NCBI GenBank assembly: GCA_947561715.1
Contig: OX387199.1
Location: forward strand, 7,631,001 to 7,695,000
From: Ascidia mentula
Lineage: Eukaryota; Chordata; Ascidiacea; Phlebobranchia; Ascidiidae
Length of the DNA: 64,000 bases
Direction of reading: 5' to 3'
A model generated the notes under the pieces. It did not search any database, was not told the DNA's origin, and saw nothing but the letters and a program-made list of their open reading frames with translations. Positions within the stretch are counted from its first letter, which is position 1; each line of letters starts with the position of its first letter. This document shows positions 17,827-52,500 of the stretch, in pieces. A program made the translations under genes and the position numbers.

Positions 17827-20800
17827 TCAGTGAAACACCTTGTACATTTTAGCACGGATGTTCCCGTAGTCGGGCAGAGCCTCAGTGGGTCCGATGGCTG
17901 CAACAGCAGGGCAGGAATCCCAGACGTATTTGCCCATCACACGTTTAACGTCACTCGTTTGCACGCGCTGTAAAAAAATATAGAAGAAAATTAATGTGGT
18001 TCGGGCGTTGTACAGTACATGATTGGCTTGGAAAGAAATTGTAAGAAAACCGCATACTGTGTGTAGTTCATTAGATTAGAAACCTTAGCGGCTTTATTTG
18101 ATGTTAACAAATTTATACAAACTTGTCTTTTGAAAAAGAATAGTTTTGTTGTATATTTTACAAAAAAGTTTGAGCATATGCATGGGGACAATCTTTATAA
18201 ATAATTGAAAAATTAAATGTTCATTACACAATTTACAAAAAAATACGGTCTTTGTTTCAATCTAAAGCTTCGCAACCCTCAGTCTGATTTGTTTTATACC
18301 TTGATGCGTTGAGCAATTTCAGGCCATGGAATTCTTCGACCATAGCAAAGCATCTGCCTTCCAATGTCCTCGCATATCGGTGTGGTGCCATCAAGCATCA
18401 GAGCCATGTTGGTAAGCAGAGTGTTTTTGGCTCTGGATACCTCGAAGTCAGTGAGGTTGGTACATAACCTTACCCTGAAAAGTCACCAAAACAAATATTG
18501 ACTTATTTGGCTTTACCAAACACACACATTTCACCACACATTAAAAACATTATTGTTTAAAAATCAAAATTTGGTTACTGATAGATGTAATTTAACTATA
18601 AGAGGTGTTGGATCAAACCAAACAGTTTCCCTACCATTCGTCTTGTACACGAATGGTGCAATCATTCAAGTGGTCATTGTCCGTTACATAGTATATGCCC
18701 CTGTAATTCAAAAAAGCAACAATTTTAACTGGTTTTAGTTTAACATGGGATTACACAAAGAGTCAGACCTCGTTAATTCAGACTACTTTGTTTTCTCAAA
18801 TAATATCAGCCTATTGGGGTGACATGATTAACAAAATCAAAAAGTAATAACGCAAAAAAAAACATAAAAAATGAATCTGTTTTGTAAGTTTTGTGCCAAA
18901 TCTTGGATGTTTTAATTGATATCATTTGTTTGCACAAACATTCTATAGTATGGAATCCATACCATAGTCCAGTATCAGTGTAAAGAGTGTTGAAAGACTG
19001 GAAGCTGACACAGAGGTTCTCATTGGCCATCCTCCTCACCAAAGGGTTGGGAAAATGGGAACCATTGACGGAAGATCGATCCCAAGTACCAATTATCTGC
19101 ACGGCAAATTAAACATGTCACGTCTATAGTACTGTACGGTAATTGTACTGACCTGGTTGGCAATCATCAAAATAATGGTATCTGGATGTTCCCAACCAAC
19201 ACCCTCAACTGCCATGGCAACATGCACAAATGGCATGTTGTCGTTACGGTGACGTATCTATGCAAGAAAAAAAATTACATGATTCTGTATATACAATGTG
19301 TACCTGTACTGTACATACGTCAGAAAACCACTTGAAAATTGTATATACAACTCATACTTGGTTCATAATTCATATTTGCTGAACTAAACATTGTTTTGAA
19401 AAAACAAAAAACTTTATTCCAAATAATGGACATGACACAAAAGACTTACATCACTCCCCGTGAAGACACAAGGAGCAAATACGGAAGAGACTTGTGCCTG
19501 ATCTTGGGTGACTGACGTTCCAAAGAATTGTTTTGCCAAATCCACAAGTTTGTCATGGTCAACACCACCGGCTGCAGCAAGCACCATTCGCGAAGGACTG
19601 AATGCAGTTTTCATGATAAGAACTCAATTGTACATTAATTGTAGCTTTTACTCACTTGTAATGAGTTTTGATGTAGGTCAAAAGGTCATCACGATTTATT
19701 TTCTTGATGTTCTCTGATGGTCCGAGGATTGTGAGACCAAGTGGGGTGCCTTGGTAAGCAGTTGCGTGAAGGTAATCGAAAACCACTTCCTGTCATAAAA
19801 CAAATAAAGGTTACTTACCTCAATATTTACTTTACAGATTCTATTAGAACTAATAATTAAAACTGCATACCGGATTTAAAATGTTAAGTATATTTGGCAC
19901 CTGTTGATTTTGTTCAATTTCTTCCATTTCACGTAGAATAACCCCGCGTTCCCTTTCAATTTCTGCTTCTCCAAGTGTGCTGTTTTGTATGATATCAGCC
20001 AGGATCTCCACAGCTAACACAACAAGTTTTTTTTTACATAAAACATGAAAAAATTATTTAATTTATGAAAAAAAATTGCAAATTTTACCTCTGGGCATGT
20101 CTTTGCTAAATGCCTTTGCGTAGTACACAGTCTGCTCCCTAGATGTATAAGCATTAAGATGGGCACCCATGTTTTCTATTTCCATTTCAAGATCTAGCTG
20201 GCTGCGATTTTGGGTTCCCTGTAAAACAAACGCAAGTATACATTACAGGTTTTTATTGATAACTGTCAAAAAAGACTTGACTTAAATTTTAAATTATTAG
20301 GTTATCATTCAGTTATGTCCATTTCTTAATAACTCAATATATACATAACTCACACAAAGAGTGCAAAGGTTACCAACTACTGCTTAATACGGATCAACTT
20401 AGAGCTACACCATAAACATGCATACAATAGTTAACCAACAGGTGATTAACCAAAATTCATTAGCTTTATACCTTAAATGCCATGTGTTCCAGAAAGTGAG
20501 CAGTGCCATTATTGTGGTTTTGCTCATATCTGCTTCCTGCATCAATCCACAAGCCAACTGTGCATGTTGACAAGCCAGAGTCTTCAGAGGCCACTCTCAA
20601 ACCATTTGCAAGTTTAGTGATCCTTGTTTCTGGTGTGTTAACGTGGACAGCTGGTTGCCCCGACTGAAATCTTTTCAGAACACCCTGAAAGAACAAACAA
20701 ATGATTAGATATTACCACTAAATCAGGTAATATTTTATGTTCAATTTTAACTCCACAATACTATTACTAGCTATGGAAAAAAATTATGTTTTAATTACAT

Positions 20801-22695: not shown

Positions 22696-25600
22696 TTACT
22701 GGGAAGTTTTGATGTCTTCTAACGGCACGGAATGGTCGGAACGGTCTTTGTGGGATTTGCGCCTCTTCTTCTTTCGGCCTTTGTAATATTGTGTCTTGGT
22801 GCGTTTGCGCTTCACGGGCGAGGTCATAGTTGGTCCTAGATCCTCATCCGAGTCTTAACGTTGCAAGAAATGTAATTACGGGTTAAAAACAAATCAGTTT
22901 TTTTTTCATAGTTGCGAAGATCAATTTTTTTTGAATAGAAATTATTGTCAGGCACAATTTGTTTGAAAATATTCAAACGTATACAGTAAGTAGAAAATAG
23001 CAATAGGTGTAGAATATGTTTACACGGTTCCAAATTACCAACACAACTACCCTTTGCATCACTGCCATCTTATAATCTTATTTCCACTTTGAAAAGTCTC
23101 AAAACCAACCTGAATCTCCGTTTTCCTCTTCACCAATCTGCAGGGAATCGTCCAAAAGTGACCCAGCATCAACTTCCGACTCCGCTTTAACAGCTTCCAC
23201 GTTCGCATATACGCCGAGCGCCCCTGCATTTCTGTGAGGAATTACATTGCAAGGTTGAATGGATGCTGAACAATGAACGTGCGCTCAGTGGTCGACTTAC
23301 TTGCGAGGTCGCCCCCTTTTCCGCTTCGGGGTTTCGACTTTACTTTGAGCACCCTCTTGCGGCTCAGGTTCCCTGACTTCTCGCTTCACTCTGCTCCTGG
23401 CTTTAGACTCAGCCTCGTACTTGAAATAAATAACATTTAAGTTAACTAGTAGGTCTGCGTAAAGAAGATATTCGACACTTCGTACGTTATCTGAGATACA
23501 TGTAATTTAGACAGCAGGATGTTATGGGATTCGTAGGTTATACGACATAATTGTTTAAATTAAATTCATGAACACACAAGTCTAACAAGACATGTCGCTG
23601 AGAATCTATAACAAAAAGAACCTTTAGTACTAAATTGTCTTTAATACAAACTAACATTAGTTTTTTTTTTTAATTTCCTAATATTTGCCTTTGACAGCCA
23701 GAGCTACAACGAAATTCGGTAACTTAAAATTACAAATACATCATTTACACAAAAACAATGCTACCTCTATATTTTCGATAGGTGTCGGTTCGTCTACGCT
23801 TTCATTCCAGGTTTCCGGCGGGATCATAGATTGCGCCACAGTTACAATCGCTTCTTCCATCTCATACTCAGCAACGTTAGGGTCGTGGTCTGTGCAGCAA
23901 TCGTATTTGCTGGGTACGCTCTCCACCAGTTGGTTTTTGACGTGCGACGCACAGAAAGAGTTTGGACAGAAATGGCAGAAGCTTTGAGCTCGTCGACCGC
24001 AGAAGTCGCAGTGATGCCAAGGACATTCCCACTTACCTTTACATGTAATACAATGATTAACCAACGTTCAAGTGTTGGAATTCGATGTTTTTTTGTTGAT
24101 TTTTTTTTTGACCACACCGGGATTTAAACCCAGGACATCCTGGGCACGAATCCCGATCAGGTTTTTTTCTTGGTATACGGGTTGGAATTCGATGTGTTTT
24201 TGTGGTTGAATTTTACAACATGTGGTTTGGGTTATTCGTTATTTACGACATTTTAGTGTTGGTCATGCGCTATGAAGGTGTCGGTTTGTTTCTGGAGTTT
24301 CGGTGTTTCTAATAGCTTGAGCAGCTGAAGTGAAACCAAAACCAATGCCATTTTGCTGCAGACAGTAGTGTACACTGTATCACTCTGCGCAGTTATTTAA
24401 ACTATTGTCATTAAGTTAGCGTGTAAGCTTACAAAAATCCAATCACATATTACATACAGTCCTATAGCAATCACATATTACATACAAATGAAGATTTTGT
24501 CTGGCAAGAAAATATAAGAGAAAGGCAAAATTACCGAATGGTGGCTTCGTAAGACGCAAGCAGGAGAGACAAAAGGCGCGTTGACATCCTCGCACGTCGC
24601 AACACACAAGCGTTCCGGTCTGCCGACATCGAAAGCAAAAGTCGTCATGCTTGGGTAGGATTCGGGTGTCCGCCTTTTTTCTTTTTCTCTTGTTGCGATG
24701 CGAATTCAGGTTGTTGCCATTTCCCATTTGCGGCTGCGCGGGTTAAATGTGAAAATAAATTGAAGAGTGAAAATAAATTCTTTTGGACTTGCTGACAGGC
24801 AAATCTCAAAACAACTTTTGCTTGAACGAGTTGGTTATTTTACAAAAATCTAAACTATTATGTAAATGAAAATTTCTGTAAATCAAAAAAATTCAATAAT
24901 TAGGAATTTTGTACCTAAACATAAATTGTAATCATAGTGTTTATCTGACGATGTCCAAATCGCGAACAAAACATTAAACCAAGTTAGGTGACGTTAACAC
25001 ACCTTGGGTCTGACGCCGATGAAACCACTGCAGTTTTTCGCCCCACACATACACGTGGTTTTGTCGTTTCCCAAACAGTCAAGGTTGTAATTGAAAGTAA
25101 ATTCGCCACCTGGACACAAATACACCAATCATTAACAAGCAATACACCACGCAAGTAGGTCATCGGACATTGCTATTCATTGGGACTTGGAGGTAGTTGG
25201 CACCAGCAGCCTATTTTGCCAGTTTTAACATTTTACTTCAATTTTTTGTTTAATTGTAAAACTGATGACGCTTTTAGCGAAACATGTTTTCTTTGTAATA
25301 AACTGCGTTTTGACACGAGGTTATTTATAATGTATTTAAACAAGTATTAAGTTGCCCTTCAACAAACATTAGAAACCGTATATCAAAAACGATAACGTAT
25401 ATGATTTAGTGGTTGTGAATCACTCGCGTTATACCTTCCGGAATATCTTTCCGTGCGAACAGCCCAACCCTGGTGTCACCATTCACCGTCCACTTCTGCG
25501 TCTCACAACTCGGGTCACACGAGTGGTTCATAAATCGGGAATAATTGCCCTTGGGCCCAGCGTCGATGATGCGATCCTGCACAAATGAATGTAGGTTGTG

Positions 25601-28600
25601 TTAGTGAAGAATAGCAGGTTAAGGTTGTAGGATAATGCGGGATCTCTTTTTTTCCATTTCTACTTAAAAATGTGTGTACTTCATGCCTTCATACGACCTG
25701 TATGCACAGATGGAAAAAGAAAATCTGTATCAGTTAAATTATTTGTTTAAAGTTGGCCGATGTTATTGGGAGTTGTTACGATCACTTGCATGTAAATAAT
25801 AAATAAAGCATCGTTGTTAGTCGGTCCGAATTCTGGCTCGGCCACATTTGGGTCGTATAATCACACCTTCTTTGCGAATGTTGATATAGTTTGCGTCAGT
25901 TGCGTCACTCCTTACATATACAGAACTTTGTTACATCATAACTGCTTGAAGCAATTGAATTTGCATTGAGGCACATTAGAGTCGCAGTTTGACTTTGGGC
26001 CTAACAATTCCGAAAAGGGACCATCCTTTTCCAGACTGTGTATTATATTTAAAGCAGCATAACCTCGTTGGTCGCCATGGTTACCTATTATTTCCAGTCA
26101 GCTGCAAACCAAAACATTAATAATTCTATACCTTGTCGATTGTAAGCATGTAGAAGTTGGTGACGTTACTCTTGTGAGCATGCTCGATTCGTCGGAGGCA
26201 CTCCTCGTTGTCGACCAACTCACCCACATATTCGTTCACGAATTCACCCTTGGAAGGTAAAGAACACGTGACCAACGCGCAAAAGTGACGGAAAAGGCAT
26301 CCACTCAGTTACGTCACATTCGTTAACATAAAAAAACTACACCAAGGAGATATGGACACATGGTAACCGTTTGCTTGATGTTTACTGTTATACTTGATAC
26401 CTTCTTGACTCTGACTTTGGTGCGGAGACCCCAGCCACCCCAGTTGGTTTTGAACACATCGGACTCGGGGTAAGCTCGTTTCTGGAAGTTCTGGTTTTCG
26501 CATTTATCGCCTGCGTTATAGAAGTTAGGAAAATGATTACGACACATTGCACAAAGTGATTGTTCGTTATAAAACTGAAGTTACATAAATTATTGAGACA
26601 TTTCAGGGTTATTGTAAGGTGTGGAATGTCCCGAATAGTTAAGAAATGTTATAAGGAATCTTTTTTCTTCCAGTAAATGCAAACCAACCGAACATCGACA
26701 AAAACATATTTAACTTATTTATTTCTTAACACTAGCGTTTCGTACGATATTAGGAACATTTCAATTATCGTTTGGACACTACAAACACTCTTTATACCTA
26801 ATTGTATATTACCGCCTATAGTTGCATTGCCAGTATATATTGTGTTGTTCACCTGCGGGGCAAAGAGTAGGGTGGCATTCATACATCAGCATACGGTTGA
26901 GACATTCAGATTCGGCACCGCAAGGATGTGGGTCCGACCGCTTACAAATGCACCTTGAAATCTCACTGGGATCTGCGGTATACACTTGTACGTTGCCGCA
27001 AGGTTTGTTGACCTGACGAGATAATGTGATTTCAATTTAGAGGAAGAATTAAAATATATTCTTTGCGAAATTAATCTATTCCCGCAACACTTCTTTTGCG
27101 TGACACAAGCGGAAACTTCAAAGTTAATTCCCAAGTATAAAAAAAAACTTGTGTCAAAACGGTTTTATTTTTTAAAACATGTTTCGGTTTTATTAGCACG
27201 GAAATTCAAATTAAAAGCTTTGAACCGAAAAATAACATCCTGTATTTTTATAAATATTTTTTGATGGCAACTATAATGAATGTGGAAGTAACTGAACTGT
27301 TCGTGAAAATGCATTTTGCATCAATAGCAGGGACTGTGTTGTTAATGTTGAGTACATTTAATGAATTTTTCGAATTCTAAACAAATTAAGAATGTTTTTC
27401 AACAGCCTTGTAATAAACAAGCTATCTGTTAAAAAAAGCTACCTTAATGCAATGGTAAAAATCCGTAGACTAACGCATTTTTTGTGAGTAAATGCATACA
27501 ACTTGTGTTTATTTACCTTAATGTGTTTGTAGCTTGGTCTTTTGTTTTGGGATTTGAGGTCTTGCAACTTCTGCTTGTGTGAAGCAATATTCTCGAACCT
27601 CTCCCTGGCCACTTGTAGGGCTTTGTTGAAGACGCTGCTGATTCCCCGAGAACAATTAACTGCGGACGCACCGGTGTCGCCCTCCTGTGTGTATTGAAAC
27701 ATAAGCACTGAATTCCTATCGTTTACATATCGCAAGCAACGCGCACACGTTTGGAATTCTCAGTGTAGGCAAAAACTGCTTTACACGGGAAAGTTGGCTG
27801 CATTACAGCCAGAGTTGGGTAGTCACGATTTCAAGAAAATGAGGCGACTGTGACTTCTTTTGTTTAAAATGGTCGTTAACTTGATTAATATGGTTCAGGG
27901 TTATGACGTCACGATTATTTGGATTTGGCTGAGTACTTAAGTGCTATTCGGATTCGAATCCGAATAATTTTGTTCAGTAACATTCCTCCCAACTTGACGT
28001 TAAGTCGCTGACCGTAATTACAACAGTTAGTTAAATCAGTCAGCCACTTACGCACAAACTACCGACTCCAAAACCAAGAATAATGTACTTATAATTAGGT
28101 CTAGCGATAGTGTTAAAATACACACTGCATTTTTTACTAAGAAACAACCACAACAAAATATTACCTGGTAGGCGAACACCCTTCGCTTGTTGAGCCAGAA
28201 ATAGTCGTTTGAACCGAAAAACTTGACAACGAATTCGCCGATGCCGTGATGCAATCTCTGTATATTGTCTGGAATCTCATTGGGATGCGTAATCTCACCT
28301 GGCCACCACCTGCAGTAAATATTTGCATTGAACAATTTGCAAATTTGCAAAAAATTTGCAAAAAATATTACAGAATGACAAGATATTCGACAACTTGGGT
28401 AATTTTTGTGACGTAATGGTGCATGCACATTTTGCCGTACTAAAAGTAGCCGAAAACAATACAAATCTTCTACACTGCGAGCACGTTTTAGTATTTCGTT
28501 GTGCACATCATTCTTCCCCTAATCTAGCACACAAGGTGCCAGAACATTTTTATAGTGGTTTTTAGACTTGGTCGACCCGAAGTCGATCGCTTGTCTCAAT

Positions 28601-31600
28601 TTTTTGTTGCCCTAAACACGATTCGCTTACCTGTATGACCCTAGTTTCACCCACACAATGTCGCCATACAATGGTCTTAAACGATGTTGGCAGTCATGGC
28701 AGAACCATTCACCATCGGGTGGTCTCTCCATCTCAACACAAGTGGGATGGAAGGCTGCAGGGCAACCTTCACAGCACATGAGTTGTCCGCCTGAAGATAA
28801 CAACAAATAGTTACTCTTAGAAGCAGATTTTTGTATATGTAACTGTTAATTTGGCACCGCGTAAGGCTAAATAAGATGAAAATGATGTTGCTTAGCATAA
28901 CAAAATATAAAAATCAAGATGCTATAACCTTTTTCACCAAAGTAAAAAAATTCAGAAAACTAGAAACCCCATTTTTTTACAGTCTCAAAATCATGAACAA
29001 CAGTTATGTTTGTCACAAAACATCAGAAATACCTTTGGAACAAACGAAACACCAGCTGACATGCACTGGTTGATGGTGAGGGGTGGCTTTGTGTGGTGCA
29101 AAGTGGTCGGGACATACAATGTTTAACCCTGGAAGAATTAAGGAGCCAGCAGCAATACAATCGTCACCTGCATGGTAGGCAGTTGGACACCGGACACACC
29201 TTACATACATGAAACCAGATTTAGTTTGGTGGAGCAACAAGACCTTTTCTTGATATTCCTGCATTTGCCTCAATCATAAGGCATGGTAACAACACTGACA
29301 TGAAATCAGAGCAAGATAAATAGTGAAAAATAGTTTCTGTTCGGCTTAATTGATTTTAAAAATTGGATGTACTTACTACATCAGTAGTTGTAGAAAAATG
29401 TAACACATAATTATGGAAGCCGCATCTTTTTTCTGGTCAAACAACCAGCGCATAAAATCTTACATGAAAAAATTACAAAGAAATGCACATCTATGTATAT
29501 AGAAATGGGTTATGATTTATTACTTGAACATGCGTTGCCTTCCAACATTCAGGCATGCTGTGTGGTCATCCACCGCTTTCGATGCACATGTTGCACAGTG
29601 ATGAAGAGTACATCGATTGTTGTTGAGGAGAGAGTTTCTAAATTTACATAATATGAAATTGTGTTACTAACCAATCCCAAAGAATTTCTGACATATTTCT
29701 GGCAAGCAACTACACAATATTGTGTATATTACAGTGAATTGTTACTTGATCCTAAGGTCAAGGATGGTGGACAAAAGTTTACTACATGAAGTTTATTAGC
29801 TTTTGTACAAGTTATACTACAATTTGTGACATTTGTTGAACACAAATCAATAGTATTTTTGATTGTTAACAAAACATAAAGAAGCTTATCTGGCTATCTA
29901 ACAAGAGAGGTCAGTACTTCTCACCTATCGGATTTCTCAGACTTGTCTGCCTCCTCATTACCGAGTATGGCAAGTTTACGTAGATGAAGACAGGTGGTGT
30001 GATAAGAGCGGCCACAGTTTTGAATGTTGCACCTTTTAATTTCACCCAGATCTTCACTGCCCTCAGAGGCAGATTTTTTGCAGATAAAACAAGGGTGGGT
30101 ACCTATTTAAATGTAGAGTTATATATTTTGAAATTGGAAGATAAATGAGTGAAAGAGCAACGAGACGCATCTTTTTATCCCTGTTTTGTATTAGGTAAAC
30201 AAAAGCAAGCAGGCTTTCTAGTATTTTTAGCTGCGGAAAGCGGATTCCATTTTAAGAAACTCTAAACTGTTTATTTACAAGTATTATGCAACCCCCTCTA
30301 AAACCCCAATTGATGCAACAGAATATCACAACCCACAGTTTGAGAACCAGCTTTAAACTATTAGTTTCTAGAATTTGCACAAGCCTGCTGTGTTTGAACT
30401 TAAGCAAATAAGTTAACAATGGAGGTAGTATTGGATGGAAAGTATTTACCATCTTGGCAATTTTTGCATTTGAATGGATCAGTGGATTTAGGTACACTTA
30501 TGCAAGCCGGGTGGAAGCTCTGGCAACAACCGCCAGTGCAAGGGAGAAGTTCATCACCAAGATCTTCGCACACCTGAAAGTTTTCAAAAACGACAACTTA
30601 GAAAAGGTGTAAAATTTTATAGAAGCAGATTTTTTGTATCTCACTCAGATGTTTTAAGGGGAAAAAATACTTTGAACCATCTTGAATGCAACGTCATTGT
30701 TACCCATGTATCTTTATTGTTCACATTTTTTTCATGTGGCTCTCACTTTTGGAATTACAAATTAACAGGCAGTATAACAAAAATATTAAACAACAGACAT
30801 GTTCACTACAACCTGCAACAGGTATGAATTAAATTTGTTGGTTTTACATTGTTTTAATGTTTTGCTTACCTCTAAAGTAAACAAAACACATAGGAAGGAT
30901 TGTCATTGTAACAGGTGGTGGCGTATATATACAGTATTTTTGAACTAATAAATATCTTAAAGACATGCATCCAAATGTATTTTGTTGCAATTTTGAGCAA
31001 CACGTAACCCTTTTAGTTATCTATAAATTTTAATTTGTAATTTTCAACAGAATAATTTTTTGCTCTTTTTACAATAAAAATTGTAAACTTTGGAAAATAT
31101 TTTTTTTTACGAAGAAATGATGTTGTCAGAAAACTGCTTACTGGGCAGATATTTTCTCTTTTAGTGGTGGAACCCAACTGGGGTCCCTTCCATCTTGATC
31201 TTCTTACAGAACCGTTATCATCACCATTGCTGCTTGCATCATCATGGTTACTGCTGCGACGACTGCTCCTGTCATCTTCATCAAGACTTTTTCTTCTGCC
31301 AGAGTCATCTTTAGAATGTTTTCGCTTTGCGAGAAGATCCATTCGCGATAAACCTCGCCGGCTTTCCGGAGTGGCAGACTTAAGTTTTTGTCTTGGGGAT
31401 TTGGAGCCTGTTGCTAGTACAACAAACATAATAGTTATTGCAAAAAAAATTAAAGGTTTTGTAATCATCTGAAACCTTAATCTTTCATATAATTATTTAT
31501 GTGAACAAGCTGAAAGTATAACATTAAAAGAGGCATCTGAATAGAACAGTAAGTTATTCTATGTGAATTATTGCTGGTTTAAATCAGGGATTCAGAAACT

Positions 31601-34600
31601 TTTTTGATTATGACCCACATAATTGATTAAAATTTGACCCTTTGCAATTGACAGTCATCTAATATTTTGACATTTCATTGAACAAGTTTTGGGTGTAATA
31701 CAGGTTTTATTGTTTTCTGTACATGCATGATTCATGCAAGTACTTACAAACAGTATGAGTGCAAAACTTGCGATGAATCTGTAGAGCTTTGGCACTGAAA
31801 AACTTGTCAAGGCACTTGTCGCAAGTGAAAGCAAAAGCTGCTGACTCCGCACTTCCATTCTCTGTTATCCAGAATAAAAAAATACAACATCATAGGAATT
31901 TACTTTCACGCAAGCGATATTACTAATTACAAGAAAACTAAAGGATTCCAGAAAACAAACCTTTACGCCTACATTCTAATCAGATGTACTGTTTTAGTCA
32001 TAACAGGTCATATCTATCTGACGGTAACAACCAACTGTGTCACATGTTATTACAACTATGTTTTGCAATAATTCTTTTATCATTTGTATTTAATTTCTCA
32101 TAACATTGAACATGCTGTAGTGATAATTGGAATAAAAATCAAATTTGGCGGAGACAAAATTTACAGTTTGGCAAAATGCAATTAAAAGTTACTACATTAA
32201 CCTGTGACTGTGCTGGCAGTTTTACCACTTTGGGGTATTCTCCCAAACTTTCCCTTCGACTTCGAGCCTATGCACATAAAAACCATTTTGAAGATACAGA
32301 AAACACCATAAACGTCAATTGTGTGTATTAATGTACCTGAGTTAGTCGGCAAGCACCAACGCTTGTGTTGACCCAGAGAAAACTTGGTCGGATAAGAAAT
32401 GTTGCAAGCAGGACAGGAAAATATTTGGTCTTTATCACTGAGGGGCACGGGCTCTTCGTCCTCATCATTATCACTCTTTTCCTGAAATCAAGGATGTAAA
32501 TCTACAGCTTTTACTTTTACCCGAACTTAACAGTTAAAAATACAAATGTTAACAGTATGACCAAGAAAAAGCAAAGTTTTCAAAGTTTACGTAACTTTTT
32601 TTGTAGTACAAATTATTTGAACAAATCCTTTTTAAAAATGTGCTAGCTGGTAGACTAGCAGGCACACAGATTTCCACTTTGTGGTACCTTTTTAAAAATG
32701 TTTCCTAAAAATAATCTTCAATATTTATGTGCTTATAAGCTACCTGTTGAATCAACGACCGCCTCCTTGGTTTGTTTGTGGCAGCAAGATCACCCAACTC
32801 AGATTCTACCGAGATTGTTCTTTCCTCACTGGAAAGAGCCTCCCATTCCATCCAGATCATTGCTTCTAATTGTTCTGGAGTCATTTCTGGATTTTGAGCA
32901 GCAATCTAACCAAAATCAATACTCATTAACAAGCATCTGTACCAATATGTCTCGAGTTTTCTTCCATCATGTACAAAAACCAACTGCCAAGTATATCCAG
33001 GGAGTAACAAAGTACCACCACTACATTTTAGAGACAGATATTACATTAAACAAAACTTACTGAGGGTTTATGACGCTGACAATACAGCTCAAACATTTTC
33101 GTCTCGGACAGATTCATTGAAGATGAGGTTTTCGGACTGTTTAGCAGCTTTTCCTTGAGTTCTAATGAAAGATGGCGTTGGGTTAACTTTAGCTACTACA
33201 GATTTAGCAATGAGTCACGGAGTATTGGCTGTTTAATGTAATCTTATACATTCATCCATTCAATCTACACATGAAAACCTTTTTTCAGCAGATTTTTTTC
33301 TTTCTGGATTTGACGCAATCTTTCATTTTTCATTTGTCTTGCAGAGTTCAGTCTTTTTACAGCATGCTTCTGCTTAAGCTTCTTTAACTTGCGACCGACT
33401 TTGTTTTCATTTTCCTTTGACATTTGCCTTTCCTGCCAACAGTAGAGTACAGTTAGACTTAAACAATCCGGAAAAAAAACTTGGTCATCTGCCCAGCAGT
33501 GTTTGTCAGAAGGCCAGACACCAACAAAAACTAGGGAACAATTGGAAAACAGGCCATTTTAGGCATTAAATGTTCTTTAAAGGTTGTTTACTGACAGTTC
33601 TGGAACAACAAACACTGCTGTGCACATGACATGTTGATCTTCACAAAACATGGCAATAAAGAAAAAAATACTGACACCTGAGTTTGTTTAGAAAACCTGT
33701 AGACACAATATAAGACCATTTAGTTTCGAATAAAAACTGACAAAACTGCAAAAGAACAATTGGTACTATCATAAGATGGAGGTACAAAGCAGTGAAAGTT
33801 GTTCCAGAACATGCCACACACACTGTGAACAAAACAAAGCACAAAACGTGCATTCTGGCCATTCTGACAATCTGCCCACTCTAACACTAATGTACAGATA
33901 AAACTTTTTTTCTAAAACATACTTGCAGGGCAAGTCTTGTTGAATGCTGGCTTCTCGTTTGCAATGTAGTCGTGGAAGATCCATTGCGGATACAAAAATC
34001 ATGCAACTTTTCGTCGCTGAATGTTTCAGCCGGATACTTGTCACGATTTATCGGAAACAAGCCACTTTCATCAAATGAAGAAATAATTGTTTCTGGCGTC
34101 AAAATGTCCGTCCACATGTCCTTGGCAATTGTTACTATGTCAGACGATGCATACTTTTTTGTCGTTTTCCCTGAAACACTTGCAAGAGTTTCTTTTACTA
34201 CTTTGTTATAGGGGACTTCAAACACAATACAACTTGACGCATGCGGCAACTTAACGATAGCAACCTTTTTCTTCATCATTGCCAACATGAAGGATATGGG
34301 CAGTTCAGATAAATGGCTATCTAACAAAATCAAAGCAGGCTCTTGTACTTCATCAAGAAAAGCAGTCAACCAAAGTTCGAAGAGTTGCTGATCGAACTGG
34401 CCATGCTCGGAAAATGCACAGTTCACTTTTGGTCTCTGTCCAACTCCCGACTGGCAAGAATGACTCCAAAGCACACCACCACTAATAATGACAAGGGGAT
34501 TAAACTTCTCACCTGCTGCATTTATAGCAGACACAATGCTGGCATTTTTCATATTCTTTAACTTGACCAGAAATTCTTGAACCAAATAGACTTGGGAAGG

Positions 34601-37600
34601 GCTGTTGTCAACACCGAGAGATTGCGATATTTTCTCGAGTTTGTCAAACATTGCATATATTAAAAAGGGGTCTGCTTCAGTCGGTGTGGTCTCCGCTTGT
34701 GGGTCACAGTACTCAATGTTGTTGCGGATGCAGAAGTATTTCAACCAAATGTTTGTCACTGTATTAATGTGATTCAGGCTTTCCAAATAATCCGTTACAA
34801 GTTTTGATAAGTTTTCTTTGCTCAGATTCCAACCCCAATCAAGTTGAGTTTTAAGCGCACTGGAAATATTTGCTTCCATTTCCATTCCTAACCCATGCAC
34901 CACCCGCTCTATGCGTCTCTTAGACTTTTTGTATAAGCGACCCCGGGCGTTATCTTTGAGAGTTGATGCGGGAATTCCATACTTGTTAGCAACTGTTCGT
35001 ACACGACCACCCTTTCTCACCTCGCAAACAGCATCATGCAAGTCTTCTTTCGTGTATGTCCATGATTTCCCACTGAATAGACTTGGTTTGTCGCGATGCC
35101 TCATCTTTTGCTTGTGTTCTGGGGAAATGTTGTCTTCAATAGATACAACAACAGATGGCATTTTTTTCTTCAGTTGTTTGATTTTATCGACTGTGTTCTG
35201 ATTTTCTGTTTCAGGAACTTTTTCTTTCAATGGACATACTTTCCTTCTCCTAAACTGTGGACCCATAATACGAAACAAGTGCCTGTTTGCTTTGAGAATA
35301 CCCAAGCGCTTGTGATGTGGAAGGCGCTTGGACTTAATAAGGCTTTGGTAAATGCCGGCATTTCGTTTAATGCAGTCACGGATAGTAGTGTTTGGAATGC
35401 CATATTCCTTTGAACAACTTGTCACAGTGGTTTTGGCAGTCAAAATTTTGTCAAGTGATGCCAAAAGATCATCATGTGAGTAGGAATTTTTCGCAACAAC
35501 TACACTTGGTTTCACAGGTAATGCAACTTTAGGTGGAGGCATGTTTGTCGACTTATTCAAGAAATACTTTATGCGCTTACAAAACATTTGTAGTGAGATG
35601 TTATGAGCAGCTGTTGAAACATGTACACTTGCTCCCTGCAAACATTTTCTCATTGCAAGTCGGAAATCCTGCTCCGTAAAATCTTCAGATTCGGAGCAAG
35701 AACTTTTGTAACTCTGCAATTTTCCAGGTTGGCGATAGTTGTGCCAAGCTGTTGCCAGCTCACCTTTTTCAAACTGTACAATGTCCTGTTTGTTGCTGGA
35801 TGAAGCAGTAGCTACAGATGCTTTCTTCACTGGCAACAGTTTTGATTTTACTTTATCCACACTTCTAGGTCGTGGCTGTAACTGAAGACGTCTACATTCA
35901 CCTATCAATTTGATGTGATGAATCTTATTGTCAATGATAACATATTTGCTGCACAGGAACATGGCACAGCTGGAGTGGTGCTTTATAGCAAGGACTTTTT
36001 TGCCCATTGTATAATCCCACAGTGTTGTTGCAGGAATTCGAAAGTTGGCTGCAACATGCCGATATGGAAAGCCTTCCTCAACACTTTTTATTGCACTGAT
36101 GAGATCTTGTATGGTGTATGTAAACTCTCCCAAGCCACGGCTTTCTTCAAGTGCAGTGCATGTACATACATTAATATCAACAGTCTGTTGGATTTTCAGC
36201 GCGCTTAAAGCTTTTTCAGCTCTGCTTGCTGTTATAATGCTTCCACGTTCGTAAGATGGAAACTTCTTCGCCACAAGCCCCAAACATTCATGAAATGCAG
36301 TGGTTTTGTTATTTTCATCACTGTGGTCCTGTTTTGGTTTTGATAAAGCAGTGCATTGGTGTGTAAGTTCCTGTTTCCAGTTTACTGCCTGCAAGGCATT
36401 ATCACTGACACATAGCTCTTGCAATGCAATATTTGATTCTGAAGTACATTTTCGCCTGTTATTTTGCAGAATACGTGCTGCTGGTCTAATCAAGTGTAAA
36501 GCATCTTTTGGATTTATTTGGCTGTCGTGTGATGCAGCTCTTGTTTTCTTTTTGGATCTGGTGTAATGTATCAGCAGCTTCGTTTTTACATTGGGCAAAA
36601 AGTTTTGAGGATCTGCGATTTCCACGCTGCTCTGATTTCCACTGGGAAAATCTTTTTCGGTTTTCTTGTGCGACACTGAGGTAGATATGTTCTTGGGAGA
36701 TTTATTTTGCAAACAATTCGACTGCACAACAAATGCACATGTACCACTTGCACCAGGGTTTACAGGCAATTTGGGCGCATGGTCTGCGATTCCGCTGCCC
36801 TCGGCAAACTTGTTGTTAGGGTATTGCACATGGTAGACTGGAATACACTTATCTGTTACCAAACAATCACCAGGTGTCTCTGAAATAAGACTCTCTTCTG
36901 CGGAACAGCTTACAGCACCATTAGTTATCGCATTACTGTCTTGGTGGGTCTGAAGTCTGTCTAAACAATTGTCTCCGGGAAAGGATATATCTTCCACCAA
37001 GGCCTTTGCCAGCAGCTGGTCAAACGAAACATCTGCTTCTTCATGATTCTTGGTGAGATGAAAGTTTGTTAACAAAAATCACTTCATTGCCATGTAAAAA
37101 AACTCAAATCAGAGTGAATATAAAAAAAACAAACACAAATAGATAGTGCTGTTTACATGGGACTTTGCCACCTACACAAAGGACTTACTTCAGGAGTGTT
37201 TGGTTTGGTCAGTTTCTTGATGTAGGGCTTGAAGTCGTAACCAAATTGTTGAATTCTTTCCTCTGCATTGAACGGTACAGCCTCCTGGATTTCATCTACA
37301 GCGGAATCCCAGTCTTGCTTCAATCTGACAAAAACAAATCCATTGAAGTGTGTAAATCCTACACGCCACCCCTACTTTTAAGCAAATAAGACAAAAATGT
37401 GTGAGATTTATTTCACAGTTTGTAGCTGTTGAGCAACAACAGACTCAACATTATACTTACCGGACAGGAATATCCAATCTTGGCACTTTCAAAGACATCT
37501 TTTTGCTTTTCGTTGTAAGTTCTTCAATGATTATCTCATAGTCGTCTGGTCCATTGTACAGAAAGACCCTTCTTTCGTTAATCCAACCTCGCTCTGGACG

Positions 37601-39193
37601 GTCACCAAGAAACTGCACATGGTACACTCTGCAACCCTTCGGTCCACCACCTATTCCAATCATAGAAATATTAGTGTTTACCAACAAAAAATAACATGAT
37701 ACATTAACATTTTTAAATTTGCCAACAATTAAAATTCTTTTCTTGTGGATTTTCTAGTTACAAACACTGACATTGGCATTATGTGATAAACAGTAGTGGA
37801 GATAAGCTTTCTATAGTGCAATATAAAAATTCATAATATGTAAGCATAACTAAACTATATTCCACATTAAAACACAGATTTAAAATCATTGCACATACAG
37901 AGAGTATGAATAAAGAAACACTATTGAACATCAATAAAAAATTTTAAATTTTTTTAAGGATGTTTTATTTCTTTAATTTAAGTATATGTTGACTTGTTAA
38001 AGTTTATTAGTTGTGGTCGATTTTGTTGACTGATTTTTTTCACACTAAATCTATGCAATAAAGAAGAAAAAACGTTACATTTAAACATATGTATTATATA
38101 AATATATATAAAACAAGATCCAACACACACTTATTCTAATTTCAGCCATCTAAAACAAATAGCAGCGGTTGCATATTTGCGCATCTAACGTTGGAGAGAT
38201 TTTGAGATACAAACAACATAGTTGCCAATGCCAAGCACTAGATGGCAATATAAATGTGCAGTTACCATGCATTTTGGTAAATATTTCTTCCTCCGGATGA
38301 AGAGTAATCATACATGGCCACAAGGGATGTCCCGGAACATACGCCCATACCAGATCCCCTAATTTCCAAATGATAGCGGTCTCAACAAGAACAACCTGTA
38401 AAAAAAAGAATAACATCAGTCTGTCACACCAGAAACTACAGAAGTTGTGTACAATACAAAAAAGTTAAAAAATACACTTTTTATTGACTAACCTTTTCTT
38501 TAACAGGCCTTGGGGGTGATACCACTTTTTCTTCTTTTTTGTCATCATTATCATAGTCAAGAGACTTTTTAGGGACCCGCTTACGTTTGGAAACTCTGTC
38601 ATTAATAAGAATAAACTAATAATGTTAATCGCAAAAAACAACAATGTTTTATTTTACATACCTTGGAGATGGTGTATTTACATTAGTGATGTTTGGCTTC
38701 AATTTGTCTAAATAACAATATGAACAATGTTGTGTACTGCACACCAGAAAATCTTTAATTTTTGATCACATCACTTACTAGGCAAAACTGGTGTTGCTGT
38801 TGGACAGGGTTTAAACTTTGCATTTTTGACTACTGATTCCAACATTTCTCCAATTACTTCTTGTGATATATCAAAGGAGTCATCCAATTCTGCAGACCCA
38901 TCATTACTGGTAAGATTTGATTCAACCATCTTACATGATGTTTGGCCTCTTGGCTGGTTTAGAGATTGTTCAGAATCAAAAATTGTATTTTTGATCATCT
39001 TAGTGCTGTCGTCTATAGTCAACTCATCAATACTGTTCTTCATAGTCATGGTTACCAAGGGCAAGACTGGCACGTCATTATCTACACTGCAATTGTTTCC
39101 ATCATTTGCATCCCAAATGGAGTATGATTTGGTATGTATGGGTTTATTGCCATCCTCAGCAATCATTGAAGGGATCAAACCTTCAGACTCCAT
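22696..39193 (-). CDS. NSD (orthologue of NSD1/2/3): NSD-family histone H3K36 methyltransferase
   Basis: Thirty-one exons run from ATG at 39193 to TAA at 22696. Exons in order: 39193-38779, 38707-38662, 38595-38494 (one end ±1), 38395-38266, 37650-37461, 37324-37189, cassette 37048-33923, 33432-33279, 33161-33061, 32905-32744, 32481-32337, 32267-32202, 31861-31748, 31407-31142, 30573-30450, 30102-29925, 29637-29524, 29268-29033, 28790-28631, 28309-28165, 27684-27517, 27012-26853, 26510-26401, 26248-26132, 25576-25435, 25109-25003, 24733-24535, 24036-23765, 23419-23301, 23231-23110, 22853-22696. Without the cassette this is about 1552 residues. Domains (short form): PWWP1 ~190-290, HMG-like ~415-465, two C2HC fingers ~500-585, PHD fingers ~672-945, PWWP2 (RWWPGE) ~935-1020, AWS ~1070-1104, SET ~1105-1227 ([11 protein letters not shown]), post-[11 protein letters not shown], final PHD/C5HCH ~1290-1370, AT-hook-like KRKRGRPRK near 1455. 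It is nuclear and methylates H3K36. Confidence 0.95.
24089..24180 (-). mobile_element. tRNA-derived SINE fragment with target-site duplications
   Basis: On the minus strand this reads as a tRNA-like T-arm/B-box segment (CTGGGTTTAAATCCCGG) followed by an A-rich tail. It is flanked by a perfect 15-base direct repeat, GTTGGAATTCGATGT, at 24074-24088 and 24181-24195. It lies in the NSD intron between exons 24733-24535 and 24036-23765. Only about 92 bases remain, so it is 5'-truncated. The duplication shows retrotransposition by a LINE-type machinery. Confidence 0.75.
25255..25300 (+). ncRNA. Hammerhead-ribozyme-like motif (degenerate)
   Basis: CTGATGA at 25262-25268 is followed by a short hairpin (GCT TTT AGC) and GAAA at 25279-25282, then the palindrome ACATGT, as in minimal type I hammerheads of Penelope-like elements. 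Stem I pairs only about two bases beyond the core, so it is probably a decayed copy. It lies in an NSD intron on the strand opposite the gene. Confidence 0.35.
32627..32701. mobile_element. 45-base micro-insertion with 15-base target duplications
   Basis: The direct repeat CCTTTTTAAAAATGT occurs at 32627-32641 and 32687-32701 with no mismatch. The enclosed 45 bases (32642-32686, starting GCTAGCTGGTAGAC and ending TTTGTGGTA) match a segment at 44580-44625. The insert contains a tRNA A-box-like string (TAGCTGGTAGA), so it may be a severely truncated SINE. It lies in the NSD intron just downstream of exon 32905-32744. Confidence 0.75.
33923..37048 (-). CDS. Giant NSD cassette exon encoding a domesticated pogo-like transposase
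   Basis: The exon is 3126 bases, 1042 open codons. The acceptor is ...CACCAAG/AAT and the donor CTGCAA/GTATGT. Both ends are phase 0, as are the neighbouring NSD exon ends (37189 and 33432), so it can be included or skipped in frame. No Met occurs before exon residue 348, which excludes an independent start for the N-terminal third. Four pipsqueak-type HTH units lie near residues 311-349, 456-498 (degenerate), 522-563 and 662-707 (pattern DL..A...V..G...VA..YGIP..TL.D). A CENP-B-like block follows (738-779), then a DDE_1-like domain (816-1001) ending in [13 protein letters not shown]. The expected DETG is VQEF (about 824), LLDSHLSE keeps its Asp (910), and QPLD is VPYN (about 947). It is probably catalytically dead and DNA-binding. 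The alternative is a nested decayed transposon. Confidence 0.85.
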
Positions 39194-45370: not shown

Positions 45371-45685
45371 ATGGCCAGGAGTCTAGTAAAGTTGGTCCAG
45401 TCCTTAAACTCATCAGTGCTTGTGAAACGATCAAATTTTCCATCCTTCATCTCAACGAACATACATCGACATATTTCCACTACAGCATTGTTTAGTTCTG
45501 AAGAATCAAACAAAACATCATCACAAGGACCACCTCCGCCTGCTGCCCAGTCACCACCTGCTGTTGACCCAACAAAGTACAACACTCCAGAGTATTATGA
45601 ACACTCAGAATTTTCCTATTATGATATTGCAGCACAGTGTGTCGAAAAACAATTACCACAACCAGATGCTGAATTAAAACCATAG
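45371..45685 (+). CDS. NDUFV3: NADH dehydrogenase flavoprotein 3-like (complex I)
   Basis: A single exon encodes 104 residues from ATG at 45371 to TAG at 45685. The N-terminus is Arg/Ser-rich with no acidic residue for about 40 positions (MARSLVKLVQSLNSSVLVKR), like a mitochondrial presequence. The middle is Pro-rich. The C-terminal block (YNTPEYYEHSEFSYYD then KQLPQPD) has the Y-x-H-x-F-x-D and K-x-x-P-Q-P pattern of NDUFV3, a small accessory subunit of the complex I N-module. GTAAAG directly precedes the ATG, so the AG may be a spliced-leader acceptor. AATAAA lies at 45743. Identification rests on the C-terminal motif and the presequence; I am fairly sure. Confidence 0.85.
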   Translation: MARSLVKLVQSLNSSVLVKRSNFPSFISTNIHRHISTTALFSSEESNKTSSQGPPPPAAQSPPAVDPTKYNTPEYYEHSEFSYYDIAAQCVEKQLPQPDAELKP

Positions 45686-48023: not shown

Positions 48024-49537
48024 GGTATTCGGGAAATAAATAGCTCATAAAACAGTACCCCTGCCCTGTAAAACATATGATTGGTTTTAACAATACCACA
48101 TAATATGCGCGTTTTTGCCACATTGGAACTCTGTCACATTTGTGTTACTTGCGTCGACTGTTCGACGAAAAAACGGTTAAATATTAATACCTTTTTTATG
48201 TTGAAGTGACGTAGAAGACCGTTTGTAATGCTCAGGCGCATGGCAACCAATAATGCTTGTGGTCGAATATACATCTACTGTAATTTGCCCAACAGTGCAA
48301 TGAAAGTCGGTCATGAGCATCGGACCGCCTTTCGACCCTTATTTACGGAGGTGGAAAGGAAATTAAAAGTTTCAATTTAGCGCCACAGAAATATTGTTTT
48401 GAACTCCCGGCCTGTTAGCGACCTTTTGACCTCCTACTCTGCAAGATTCTTTTCCTGTTTATTTCTATTCTGTACCTCTTCCGTTCTTTGTTAATTCGTT
48501 CCGCAGTTTCATTGTAACTAAATATATAACTGCAAAGATTTTGAGATTTTGAGAAAAAGTAACGGGAGGTTTGCGACCGACATATTGATTTGAAATTCTG
48601 AGGAAAGCGAACGTCGACCTTTTCGTCTTTGTATTAACGCGGCGAGTGCGTAGTTGCTGATGGAGGAATGATTGCGCCGGCGCCTGGCATTAAATATGCA
48701 TGCCCCTTGACAAATAAGCACGCAAAAGTTGTGTTGAGTCGCCGTATCACGTTGACAAGCTATAGGTTTAATCGCGGGCTATATCGCCACGCTTGACTTA
48801 AAGTTCATAATGTTATATGCGCTTTAAAGGGATGCGGTTTCATTCCTGGATCTTATAGTTTTATTATCTGGGTTGACAGGAAGCCACTATTAGTGACTTG
48901 ATCGGTTACTTTCATTCTTAAATTGACCGTTCCCCACACATTATCGATCGATTCCCACAAAGAAGAAGTTCACGACTGGTGTCTTTTTTGTTTATCCCCG
49001 CTTGCTCGCAAAAGCGACTGCATATTGATGAGCAAACATAAGGCAAAGGAGGAGAGGACGCATCGTTGGGTACGCTCCCTTTTGGTTATTTATCGCTTCA
49101 GTGATCGGTGCTTGAGTTGTTTCGATTTTTTGTAATTGAACCGGGTGCCACACACATTGTAGACATGTTTGCTTTGTTGTTGTTGTTACACAATGGATTG
49201 TGAAACCTGTTCAAAAATCGGTTTTGGCATTTACAGCCTGTCTTAATTGAAAAATGGCAGTCGGGAGCTTTGCGTTTGTCTGCCTATAAAGGAGCAATAT
49301 TATGAAAGCATTGAAAATTTATGAGGCGTGAGTCAAGTGGAAGTTTGAATTAGGCCAAGGTCATTAATTTAGAATGTATGCAGCGGATTTTTTGTTTTCA
49401 TCGCCATTAATTCAATGAGATGGTTGTTTGTATTAATAATTAGATCGTAACTGAATGATTCACCAAGCTTAGAAAACCTAACTATATACCATATACAAAA
49501 GACAACAACATTGCTTCAAAACATTACATGGATTACC
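48024..49537. other. Intergenic, no gene seen
   Basis: Short open frames on both strands have no splice logic or similarity. The right end is the likely promoter region of the EF-hand gene. Confidence 0.5.
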
Positions 49538-52500
49538 ATGACTCAGTGCCAAGATTGGAAAAACGGCAAAGCTCGTAAAAGTGAAAAGGATATATTTTTA
49601 AGCGTCAAGAAACGTCAGACATGCGTGGAAAATGCCTTCCAAAACTCTTTGCGGAATGAGACCGAACCTGACGTAACCGGGTTTTCCGCATTGGAAAGGC
49701 GATGCGAAGAAGGTGCGAACATCGTTTTTCTCGGAGCTGGAACTGCACCGGTCCCAAAATGTTCGAAAGAAGAAGGTTTCATTCGCCCGGCTGCAAATTA
49801 TAGGCGGCCGCAGTCTTCACAAAGGCATGCCCGGTGCTTCGAAAGCGACCTGAAAGTGATCTTTCTTCCGCAAAATATGAGTGATCATCTCACTAATGTT
49901 CAAGAGAGAAACCTGTCCTCATTGTCTGCCAGGCCTTCCCTGTCAAAGGAAGCAATGAAAAAGAGGTCGGCTTGGACCGCAGCCACCAGTAACCGACAGC
50001 TACGTCTTAGTAACACATCGGAAGAAAGTGCAAGAACTTTGTCGTCAACAGAGTCAGGCTGCGTCCTTCGTCCCGCTCCTGGTACTTCTTTCGAGAGAGA
50101 CGCAACGAGTGGACGTAGCCTTTCGCAAGACAAAGATTCCAACAATCTGTTGAAGGTGCCTTTGCCGTCCGGGAGTAAATCCCCATATTCCACATCTCCC
50201 TCAACCGACGAAGGAATTGTAACAGACGAGCATCACCCCGACGAAAAATTGTCGCCCTCAAAAACCGTCTTTGTGAGTCAGGAGATGGACTCCTCACGAA
50301 CCTCCACTGTGCGCATTGTAAAAGCTCGCGAACTCCGTCCTGGGCGCAGACGTCTGCCCTCCACCAAAGATTTAAACGGCAATCAGGTAAAATGATTTAC
50401 TTGCTCCAATACTTCCGACGTATAGAACGAGATTACATACAAAACTTCAGGTATATCATAGCCTCTAGGAAATCTGTCATGATGTTCGCCAAAATGTAAA
50501 CAATGTACATAGATTGTTGGTGAATCTGGAATTCTATCATTGTCTTTTATACGGAAAGTTGAACATACAATTTAACAAAACAAGGGCCTGTAAGCTTCAA
50601 TCTATAATACCCAGACATGCGCCGAGGTTTCATTTGGGTAAAACAGATTTTGGGTTTTCTATTACTTAAAAATAATACGCTCAATTTAACAAGTTTTTGT
50701 AAAACGTACTCCTGCAATACATGTAGCGTCATGAAACGCTCAAGAAACTTTAACAGAAAGCAAGTTACCGCTGATAGTGTTTATTTTTGTGCTGTTTGTT
50801 GACATGTATGACGTCACACAAGACATTTTGTAAGTTTAGAATGAATTTGTTTCTCCGGTTCTAATTTGTGACAAACATTATTTTTACGATCTCGATGCAT
50901 GTAGCGCGAAGCTAGGAGGAGGGAAGCCGTTGGCGATGACTTCGATAGGAATAACAATTCGGGCAACAACAGTTTTGTGCCACTTCTGAAGAACTCAAGT
51001 CAGAGAGAAAACGATTTGCGGAAGGCTTTTTGTGGTCAACCGCACGACCAGCAGGTAAATGGTATCCTCAGCGGGCCGTATCATTGGCCTTTTCACGTAA
51101 ACTCGACTGGAAACTAAGGGCTAATTAAAAAGCCTGCGGTATTCTTCCAGGCATTGCCTGTGACGTTAAATTGACCAAAATAGTGCCGCACATTCAATTA
51201 CAACTCTCAAGCATTTTAAAACCAGGTTGTTGCGATTGCAGCTGCGCATTTGCGTTAGTAAAGGGGCGGTTTGTGGTTTTCAGGATTCCGTGACTGACAA
51301 GAGGTTAGCGTACGTTAAACGTGGTCCGAGTGTCAGTGATACAACTGGGCAGACTTCAAGAGCTGGAAGACACTTGCAAATGGGTGCCGCTCATGCTGGT
51401 TCAAGAATTCGACAACAACAACAACAAGTATGTGTATAGCTAAAAGTTTGGAAGTTGTGCGTCCTTTAGTTGTCTAGTAAACTGCCCCAAGATATATTCT
51501 GTCATATTGTACGCGAAAGCCAGTTTCTGTGGTCTCGACATTGTTTATTATATTTGGCGCTGGCTGTACCTTCAGGCAGGACTTGCCCTAAACGAAAAGT
51601 GGAGAGCCAACTTTGTAATGTGATACAAACTTGTTTACTTACAATTTGCGTGTGCATTTATGATAGAGTCTAGTGCCATAAAATTCATTGTGACACAAAT
51701 ATAGCATTTGGATTAGGATTATATGGAAGTTTTACTTGCAGTATAATTTTTGCCATAATAAATGTTATGCATCGTCTTGCATGGCAAAGGTTTTAACCCT
51801 AAAATAACCTCTCACAATGACAACAACGCCATTCAACAACATGCTTGGATAAACCTAAACTTTTCCCTGTAGTGGTATATGAAAGATGTGCTTCAACCTA
51901 TTTCAAACATTTTTTCCAGCATCCAGTCCGCCAAGCCAGCGTCGGGTCTGCTCCAAAAAGAAAGGAAGTGCCCAACTCTTGGCGACGAACTCCTTCAACC
52001 TCATACGCCAGGTCAGGCAGCAGCGATGAAGACGACAACCCTGTGATCTTGTATTCTCGGCCCCCGGGCCATGCACGCCCTGTTGACAGTTGCACGTTCT
52101 CATTATTCGACCACAACGATCAGCCACAGCACAAAAGTGCTGTCAGTGAGAATGCAAAACGCCATGTCAAGGTAGAAACACCGTCTGAAGTCACCCACGA
52201 ACAAACTCCGACACGACGTCCTCAGATTAAAGCAGGTGAATCCAGCGAGCAAGCAAAACCGACCACAGCAAGTCCGTTGAAGACCACGGCAGTTGGAGTA
52301 GAACGGCAAGTCAGTCTTACGCGCCAGATAAGCGAGCCTTCCCGCAGCGACAGCACACCTGGGATGCTTTCAAGCGGATCGGTGTCAAGAAAAGATGCCA
52401 TATCACGTAGCGGATCGGTGAAGTCAGCGCTCGCAGATGGTAATATATACATATTGTCTATGTTGTGGGTATTAAAATACAAAAAGGAAAATACTGTGTG

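Follow-up and report, generated by a model that had tools for sequence, protein, structure and literature searches.

A transposase-derived exon in the predicted NSD histone methyltransferase gene of ascidians

How does a histone methyltransferase gene come to hold transposase sequence in the middle of its own reading frame, and what could such an insert do for the enzyme? This question is raised by a stretch of 64,000 nucleotides from the ascidian Ascidia mentula (assembly GCA_947561715.1, contig OX387199.1, positions 7,631,001 to 7,695,000; in the following called the window), which contains a gene of the NSD family. A sequence-only reading of the window had proposed that this gene has, after the exon encoding its first PWWP domain (PWWP1), a phase 0-0 exon of 3126 bases and 1042 codons that derives from a transposase. 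Both the frame count and our spliced gene model confirm the exon. In our favoured reading, to which we assign a probability of about two in three, it belongs to an ancient pogo-type module that occupies the same NSD site in four genera and goes back to a single capture over about 250 million years ago; alternative splicing would include it as a DNA-targeting cassette directing where H3K36 is methylated.

The exon and its host gene

The transposase-derived exon is exon 7 of the NSD gene (33923..37048, minus strand, as are all features below unless stated otherwise). Its 3,126 nt contain no stop codon, as compared to 27–72 stops in the other five frames. With independent codons drawn according to the trinucleotide composition of the NSD introns, a frame of this length would stay open with a probability of about 2e-29. 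Codon-usage scoring gave a weak signal and did not single out this frame against the others. Upstream lies exon 6 (37189..37324), which ends in phase 0 with a donor at 37189, and downstream lies exon 8 (33271..33432), a basic exon with a VKRL stretch that starts in phase 0 at 33432 and has the lowest-scoring donor of all 28. Because these flanking exons meet in phase 0, inclusion and skipping of exon 7 both preserve the frame: the modelled gene has 2,454 codons with the exon and 1,412 without it, and no stop either way.

The proposed derivation from a transposase is supported by Pfam searches with the whole exon, in which HTH_psq (4.8e-10, in three stretches) and DDE_1 (5.8e-8; 6e-9 when the C-terminal piece is searched) exceed their curated cut-offs and CENP-B_N, at 20.9 bits, falls slightly below its cut-off of 21.2. 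Of the profile families named beforehand, HTH_psq and DDE_1 were thus recovered, and a helix-turn-helix (HTH) of the CENP-B_N/psq type precedes the DDE_1 domain, as in pogo-type transposases.

The splice sites had been described as a consensus-like acceptor and a GTATGT donor. This holds for the donor (CAA/GTATGT), which ranks 5 of 28 within the NSD gene, and not for the acceptor at 37048, which is weak (rank 22 of 27), with a score that 17% of the region's 825 other AGs reach as well. Within the exon, 33 nt from its start, an alternative in-frame acceptor at 37015 (minus strand) has the higher score, 6.85 as compared to 2.89 for 37048. As the Phallusia protein retains the 'SF..LL' residues encoded upstream of 37015, the acceptor at 37048 is favoured nevertheless.

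We assembled the host gene manually, guided by reading frames and matches to domains, as a model of 28 exons that runs from the ATG at 39193 to 23765. All of its introns are GT-AG, and further C-terminal exons lie downstream of the modelled part. PWWP1 is encoded by exons 4–5 (37461..38395; PWWP 7.1e-14 when the spliced N-terminal region is searched), the PHD fingers and PWWP2 by exons 15–20 (28165..30573; from Pfam, NSD2/NSD3 structures and the gene model), AWS, SET and post-SET by exons 22–26 (25003..27012), and the last PHD finger and C5HCH by exons 27–28 (23765..24733; C5HCH 2.5e-14). All domains that define the NSD family are hence present in one gene. Indeed, the Pfam families found on this strand include PHD_NSD, PHD-1st_NSD, PHDvar_NSD, PWWP, AWS, SET and C5HCH, and the best structures in the Protein Data Bank (PDB) for the host gene are NSD2 and NSD3. 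Both SET motifs, GGWGLRT and RFMNHSCDP, are intact; H3K36 methyltransferase activity is predicted.

The segment in other ascidians

The spliced protein served as query for relatives among proteins of about 1,350–4,294 aa, with residues 1860–2420 used for scoring. The 3,460 candidates included 1,665 relatives, and the comparisons below use the best 120; further NSD models, also from tunicates, may lie beyond this set. The segment is found in three of these 120, namely Phallusia mammillata (P0001), Clavelina lepadiformis (P0003) and Ciona intestinalis X1 (P0005), and exon 7 of the window searched alone matches exactly these three at E 10. A profile of the second half of the exon also matches exactly the same three of the best 120 at E 10, although it contains them by construction. 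The other 117, mostly vertebrate proteins, give no match to exon 7 at E 10. By BLASTP the window exon reaches 4e-53 with Ciona and 3e-60 with Clavelina; against P0006 there is nothing below E 7.7. The expectation that the exon would recur at the NSD locus of related tunicates is therefore borne out by the models of Phallusia, Ciona and Clavelina, which are public (Ciona X1 and X4, Clavelina isoform X2 and a Phallusia UniRef entry).

The position of the segment is shared as well. On its upstream side it follows the 'YDFKP' exon after PWWP1 in the window, Phallusia and Clavelina, and on its downstream side it precedes the 'VKRL' stretch in the window, Phallusia and Ciona. In Ciona the upstream side is visible via X4 only, which runs from 'YDFKP' to the common boundary. 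The two Ciona models differ in the segment: X1 (2,305 aa) has it, X4 (1,535 aa) does not, and X1 contains one PWWP domain, PWWP1 being absent, where X4 contains two. Their C-terminal 1,188 residues are identical, beginning after '...SYH' in X1 and after '...KDE' in X4, as would result from a cassette or alternative first exon joined to one acceptor. Thus an in-frame transposase segment at the NSD site is present in three other genera, with splicing as predicted in these models.

In a tree of the PHD-PWWP2-SET part, comprising the window and 15 of the 120 listed proteins with a midpoint root, the window is placed beside Phallusia mammillata (100/100), within a group with Clavelina and Ciona (95/92). 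Phallusia is likewise a phlebobranch of the family Ascidiidae, and over 633 columns of this part the two proteins are 93% identical. Identity within exon 7 is much less even. The segment 294–390, with the Cys/His residues and HTH unit 1 described below, is 86% identical in Phallusia, 51% in Ciona and 40% in Clavelina, and the C-terminal DDE segment 84% in Phallusia, 43% in Clavelina and 37% in Ciona; elsewhere in the exon the identity with Phallusia is 61% in unit 4 and 16–27% in the linkers. For comparison, 41 residues of exon 6 show 88% identity with Phallusia and 61% with Ciona X4, and PWWP1 is 62% identical to that of Ciona X4. High identity in domains and low identity in linkers is the pattern expected from selection on the domains, suggesting purifying selection on exon 7 for a role other than transposition.

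Two further tunicate NSD proteins, P0006 and P0007, adjoin the ascidians (100/100), lack the segment and have the C2H2-like motifs described below; they may be exon-skipping isoforms or predictions. The split of Ciona and Phallusia is dated at 285 +/- 37 million years and that from the stolidobranchs at 389 +/- 32 million years, as given by Delsuc et al. 2018 (PMC5899321). Most simply, there was one capture, before the three lineages separated, and it is likely to be older than about 250 million years. If P0006 and P0007 are stolidobranchs that truly lack the segment, the capture would fall between the splits at 285 and 389 million years.

Searches for related sequences elsewhere were negative. 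In the protein database, residues 300–1042 of the exon gave no match at E 0.01 among the 7,968 candidates sharing most words, from which the length rule left out fusions of 2,305–3,112 aa, and an alignment of the second half of exon 7 from the four species gave none at E 0.001 among the 7,998 candidates sharing most words. Among viral contigs, 122 pattern matches were obtained and 0 confirmed.

HTH units, DDE domain and possible role

Four pipsqueak (psq) units had been proposed for exon 7; three of them are clear and unit 2 is doubtful. In detail, unit 1 (aa 311–350; 35999..36118) matches CENP-B_N at 2.8e-4 within the whole exon, and psq at 0.068 and CENP-B_N at 0.059 when searched alone; it was also scored by our own HTH profile, which was trained on it. 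For unit 2 (aa 459–497; 35558..35674) AlphaFold 2 predicts three helices with a block pLDDT of 68–78, while Pfam gives no psq match and the own-profile score lies inside the range of shuffled sequences. Unit 3 (aa 523–563; 35360..35482) exceeds the Pfam cut-off of 20.4 with 20.7 bits and is divergent between families. Unit 4 (aa 665–704; 34937..35056) and a further helical unit (aa 720–777; 34718..34891) make up the two halves of a CENP-B-like DNA-binding region; the helical unit is spanned by the alignment with 1hlv and has no Pfam match when searched alone. Since the sequences scored also supplied the units for our profile, high scores of these units follow by construction; by this measure the window and Phallusia have three clear units each. 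In Clavelina P0003 the array is longer (aa about 860–1552), with five units above every shuffle. Gains or losses of psq units thus seem to have differed between lineages.

Unit 1 is surrounded by a segment (35915..36166) in which C295, C297, H357, H358, C361 and H378 (CxC...HHxxC...H) are invariant in all four ascidian species. These six residues suggest a putative metal site; no Pfam zinc family matches at this segment.

The C-terminal part of the exon contains a DDE_1 or RNase H-like domain (aa 837–971; 34136..34540), found by both Pfam and fold matches. The latter include Mos1, IstA, integrase and the SETMAR transposase; with integrases, that of HIV included, ranking next to Mos1, these matches show an RNase H-like fold only. 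Searched by sequence, the PDB contained nothing similar to the whole exon at E 1 or to its DDE part at E 10. The catalytic positions were placed from strand order in the predicted model together with DDE_1 transposase motifs. The first catalytic Asp would correspond to codon 824 (34577..34579), assigned by motif, which is Gln in the window and Phallusia, Tyr in Clavelina and His in Ciona. The second, codon 910 (34319..34321), is Asp in all four species, and the third motif, F-x-(V/L)-P-Y, has no acidic residue at the expected place in any of them. By this motif-based assignment two of three acidic positions are lost throughout, and on this ground we reject an active transposase. We infer that the DDE domain has probably lost its cutting activity. 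That the triad looks broken in all four species also argues for an old domesticated module and against a recent capture.

How such a module might work can be outlined as follows. A transposon would have inserted into the NSD gene and then been exonised; its HTH units, which we infer to target DNA, would still bind DNA and supply the methyltransferase with a DNA address, and the dead DDE domain would remain as a structural or dimerising core. Splicing would then determine whether the NSD enzyme bears this address, and inclusion of the exon would shift it from general chromatin engagement guided by PWWP1 to chosen DNA sequences, comparable to the recruitment of SETMAR to Hsmar1 ends. In a more specific version, which we put forward tentatively and with less than even odds, the gene would encode an H3K36 methyltransferase programmed by DNA and dating back to the Ciona-Phallusia split or earlier, with a spliced-in pogo cassette, an HTH array that varies by lineage and a new first HTH bounded by Cys and His residues; in Ciona the cassette would replace PWWP1, so that one gene would yield both chromatin-guided and DNA-guided enzymes.

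The main rival is that the module does not read DNA, its DDE-like core and helices serving as a scaffold or for oligomerisation, with splicing tuning the assembly of the NSD complex. The DDE C-terminal segment is indeed among the best-conserved parts of the exon, and the degeneration of unit 2 and the divergence of unit 3 point in the same direction. However, HTH units have been retained or gained and none lost across the window, Phallusia and Clavelina, and the segment of unit 1 with its Cys/His residues is the most conserved one with Phallusia as well as Ciona. We therefore regard a scaffold role as unlikely, though it is the most serious of the alternatives. The absence of PWWP1 from Ciona X1 could suggest that the exon is mainly an independent nested gene of transposase origin, or an alternative first exon, and that the fusion from PWWP1 to SET is minor. 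Yet even X1 runs on into the NSD PHD-PWWP2-SET part, and the models of Phallusia and Clavelina unite two PWWP domains, the segment and SET in a single protein. In the window, the exon has no Met in codons 1–347 (the first is codon 348), and the 490-nt intron downstream contains neither AATAAA nor ATTAAA. The lack of a Met had been taken to mean that the frame must be entered by splicing, which applies to the window species; as a general argument it was dropped because relatives carry a Met within the segment, the first one at residue 16 of the excised stretch in Phallusia and residue 90 in Clavelina, and the Ciona X1 model starts with a Met of its own. A mainly independent gene is accordingly improbable in our view.

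A recent non-functional insertion or an artefact of gene prediction would fit the weak acceptor and the weak coding bias. It would not account for a homologous protein at the same position in three other ascidian genera, with the E values given above for the distant two, since neutral decay over such a span is expected to erase homology. This conservation contradicts a recent insertion or pseudogene, and we give this explanation next to no weight.

Further features and known systems

Between exon 8 and the PHD fingers, exons 9–10 (32744..33192) encode an HMG-like box (HMG_box 8.3e-5; 23.4 bits, below the curated cut-off of 25.4), and exons 11–13 (31748..32481) two C2H2-like zinc-finger motifs, assigned from the gene model and a motif pattern. 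The best Pfam match for the latter is zf-C2H2_4 at 0.0041 on the first motif of the window, below cut-off. The C2H2-like pattern before the first PHD finger occurs in all six tunicate NSD proteins, which include two isoforms of one Ciona gene, versus none of the 114 other NSDs listed. The intron downstream of exon 7 contains two imperfect inverted repeats of 23–29 nt at 33484–33810, perhaps the remnant of a small element. In total, 33433–37188 holds nine inverted pairs, one of which (14 nt, 13/14) flanks exon 7, about as expected by chance by our own estimate. Outside the NSD gene, pieces of an M16 (insulinase-type) peptidase gene lie downstream on the same strand in several frames (about 19450–20597, minus). 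On the plus strand, two long open stretches (49451–50395 and 51821–52507) have no Pfam family at 0.01 and are perhaps exons of another gene, and a weak NDUFV3 match (0.0011, below cut-off) lies near 45575–45667.

The closest known system is SETMAR (Metnase), the SET-mariner fusion of primates. It arose about 50 million years ago from an insertion of Hsmar1, a mariner element, downstream of a SET-domain gene. The sequence-only reading had already cited SETMAR as a precedent from a different superfamily, and this stands: the donor here looks pogo-like (psq/DDE_1) and the host is an NSD gene. In addition, the transposase lies downstream of SET in SETMAR, whereas the ascidian module is internal, with PWWP1 on one side and the HMG-like box on the other, comprises several HTH units and occurs in lineages dated at about 285 million years. 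With its NSD host and a psq/DDE_1 profile match inside the protein, the gene is not a SETMAR orthologue. As a functioning precedent for the mechanism outlined above, SETMAR binds Hsmar1 ends in vivo and its effects on genes are largely methyltransferase-dependent, while a gain of H3K36me2 near bound sites is inconsistent (PMC6326780).

Domesticated pogo-type genes such as CENPB, POGK, POGZ, JRK and TIGD share the combination of a CENP-B_N-type HTH with a DDE domain, and their triad is often partly or wholly degenerate. The 12 such genes named in PMC7386202 are vertebrate, unlike the ascidian NSD fusion. Three of them are chimeric, with a dimerisation domain, KRAB or zinc fingers as the partner and no histone methyltransferase. 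KRABINER and the F-box A2 HTH genes resemble the present case in that a transposable element near a host gene is exonised by splicing and a DNA-binding domain is joined to a regulatory host domain (PMC12062965). The main text of that paper does not contain PWWP, psq, pipsqueak, 'SET domain', DDE_1 or tunicate; it cites a tetrapod survey of host-transposase fusions (Cosby et al. 2021).

NSD1, NSD2 and NSD3 have the same order of PWWP, PHD fingers, PWWP2, AWS-SET and C5HCH, and differ in exon 7, which is unmatched in 117 of the best 120 relatives as described above. In vertebrates, NSD1 and NSD2 are implicated in growth disorders and cancer, and given these disease roles a natural DNA-targeted NSD would be of wider interest; the embryos of Ciona and Phallusia offer a tractable chordate setting for testing the cassette. 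The sequence-only reading knew of no NSD example, and in agreement with this no report of an NSD-transposase fusion was found in the titles and abstract starts of the open-licence PMC papers listed, those on SETMAR aside.

Host-transposase fusions are of a known kind; what appears to be new here, judged from genomic and protein models, is the internal position, the several HTH units, the alternative isoform models and the great age. As SETMAR, the established example of a methyltransferase targeted through its transposase, is young and restricted to primates, an older and independent case in a central chromatin enzyme such as NSD would show that the same solution recurs and lasts. The ascidian fusion is best read as an NSD-based counterpart of SETMAR whose transposase is of the pogo type.

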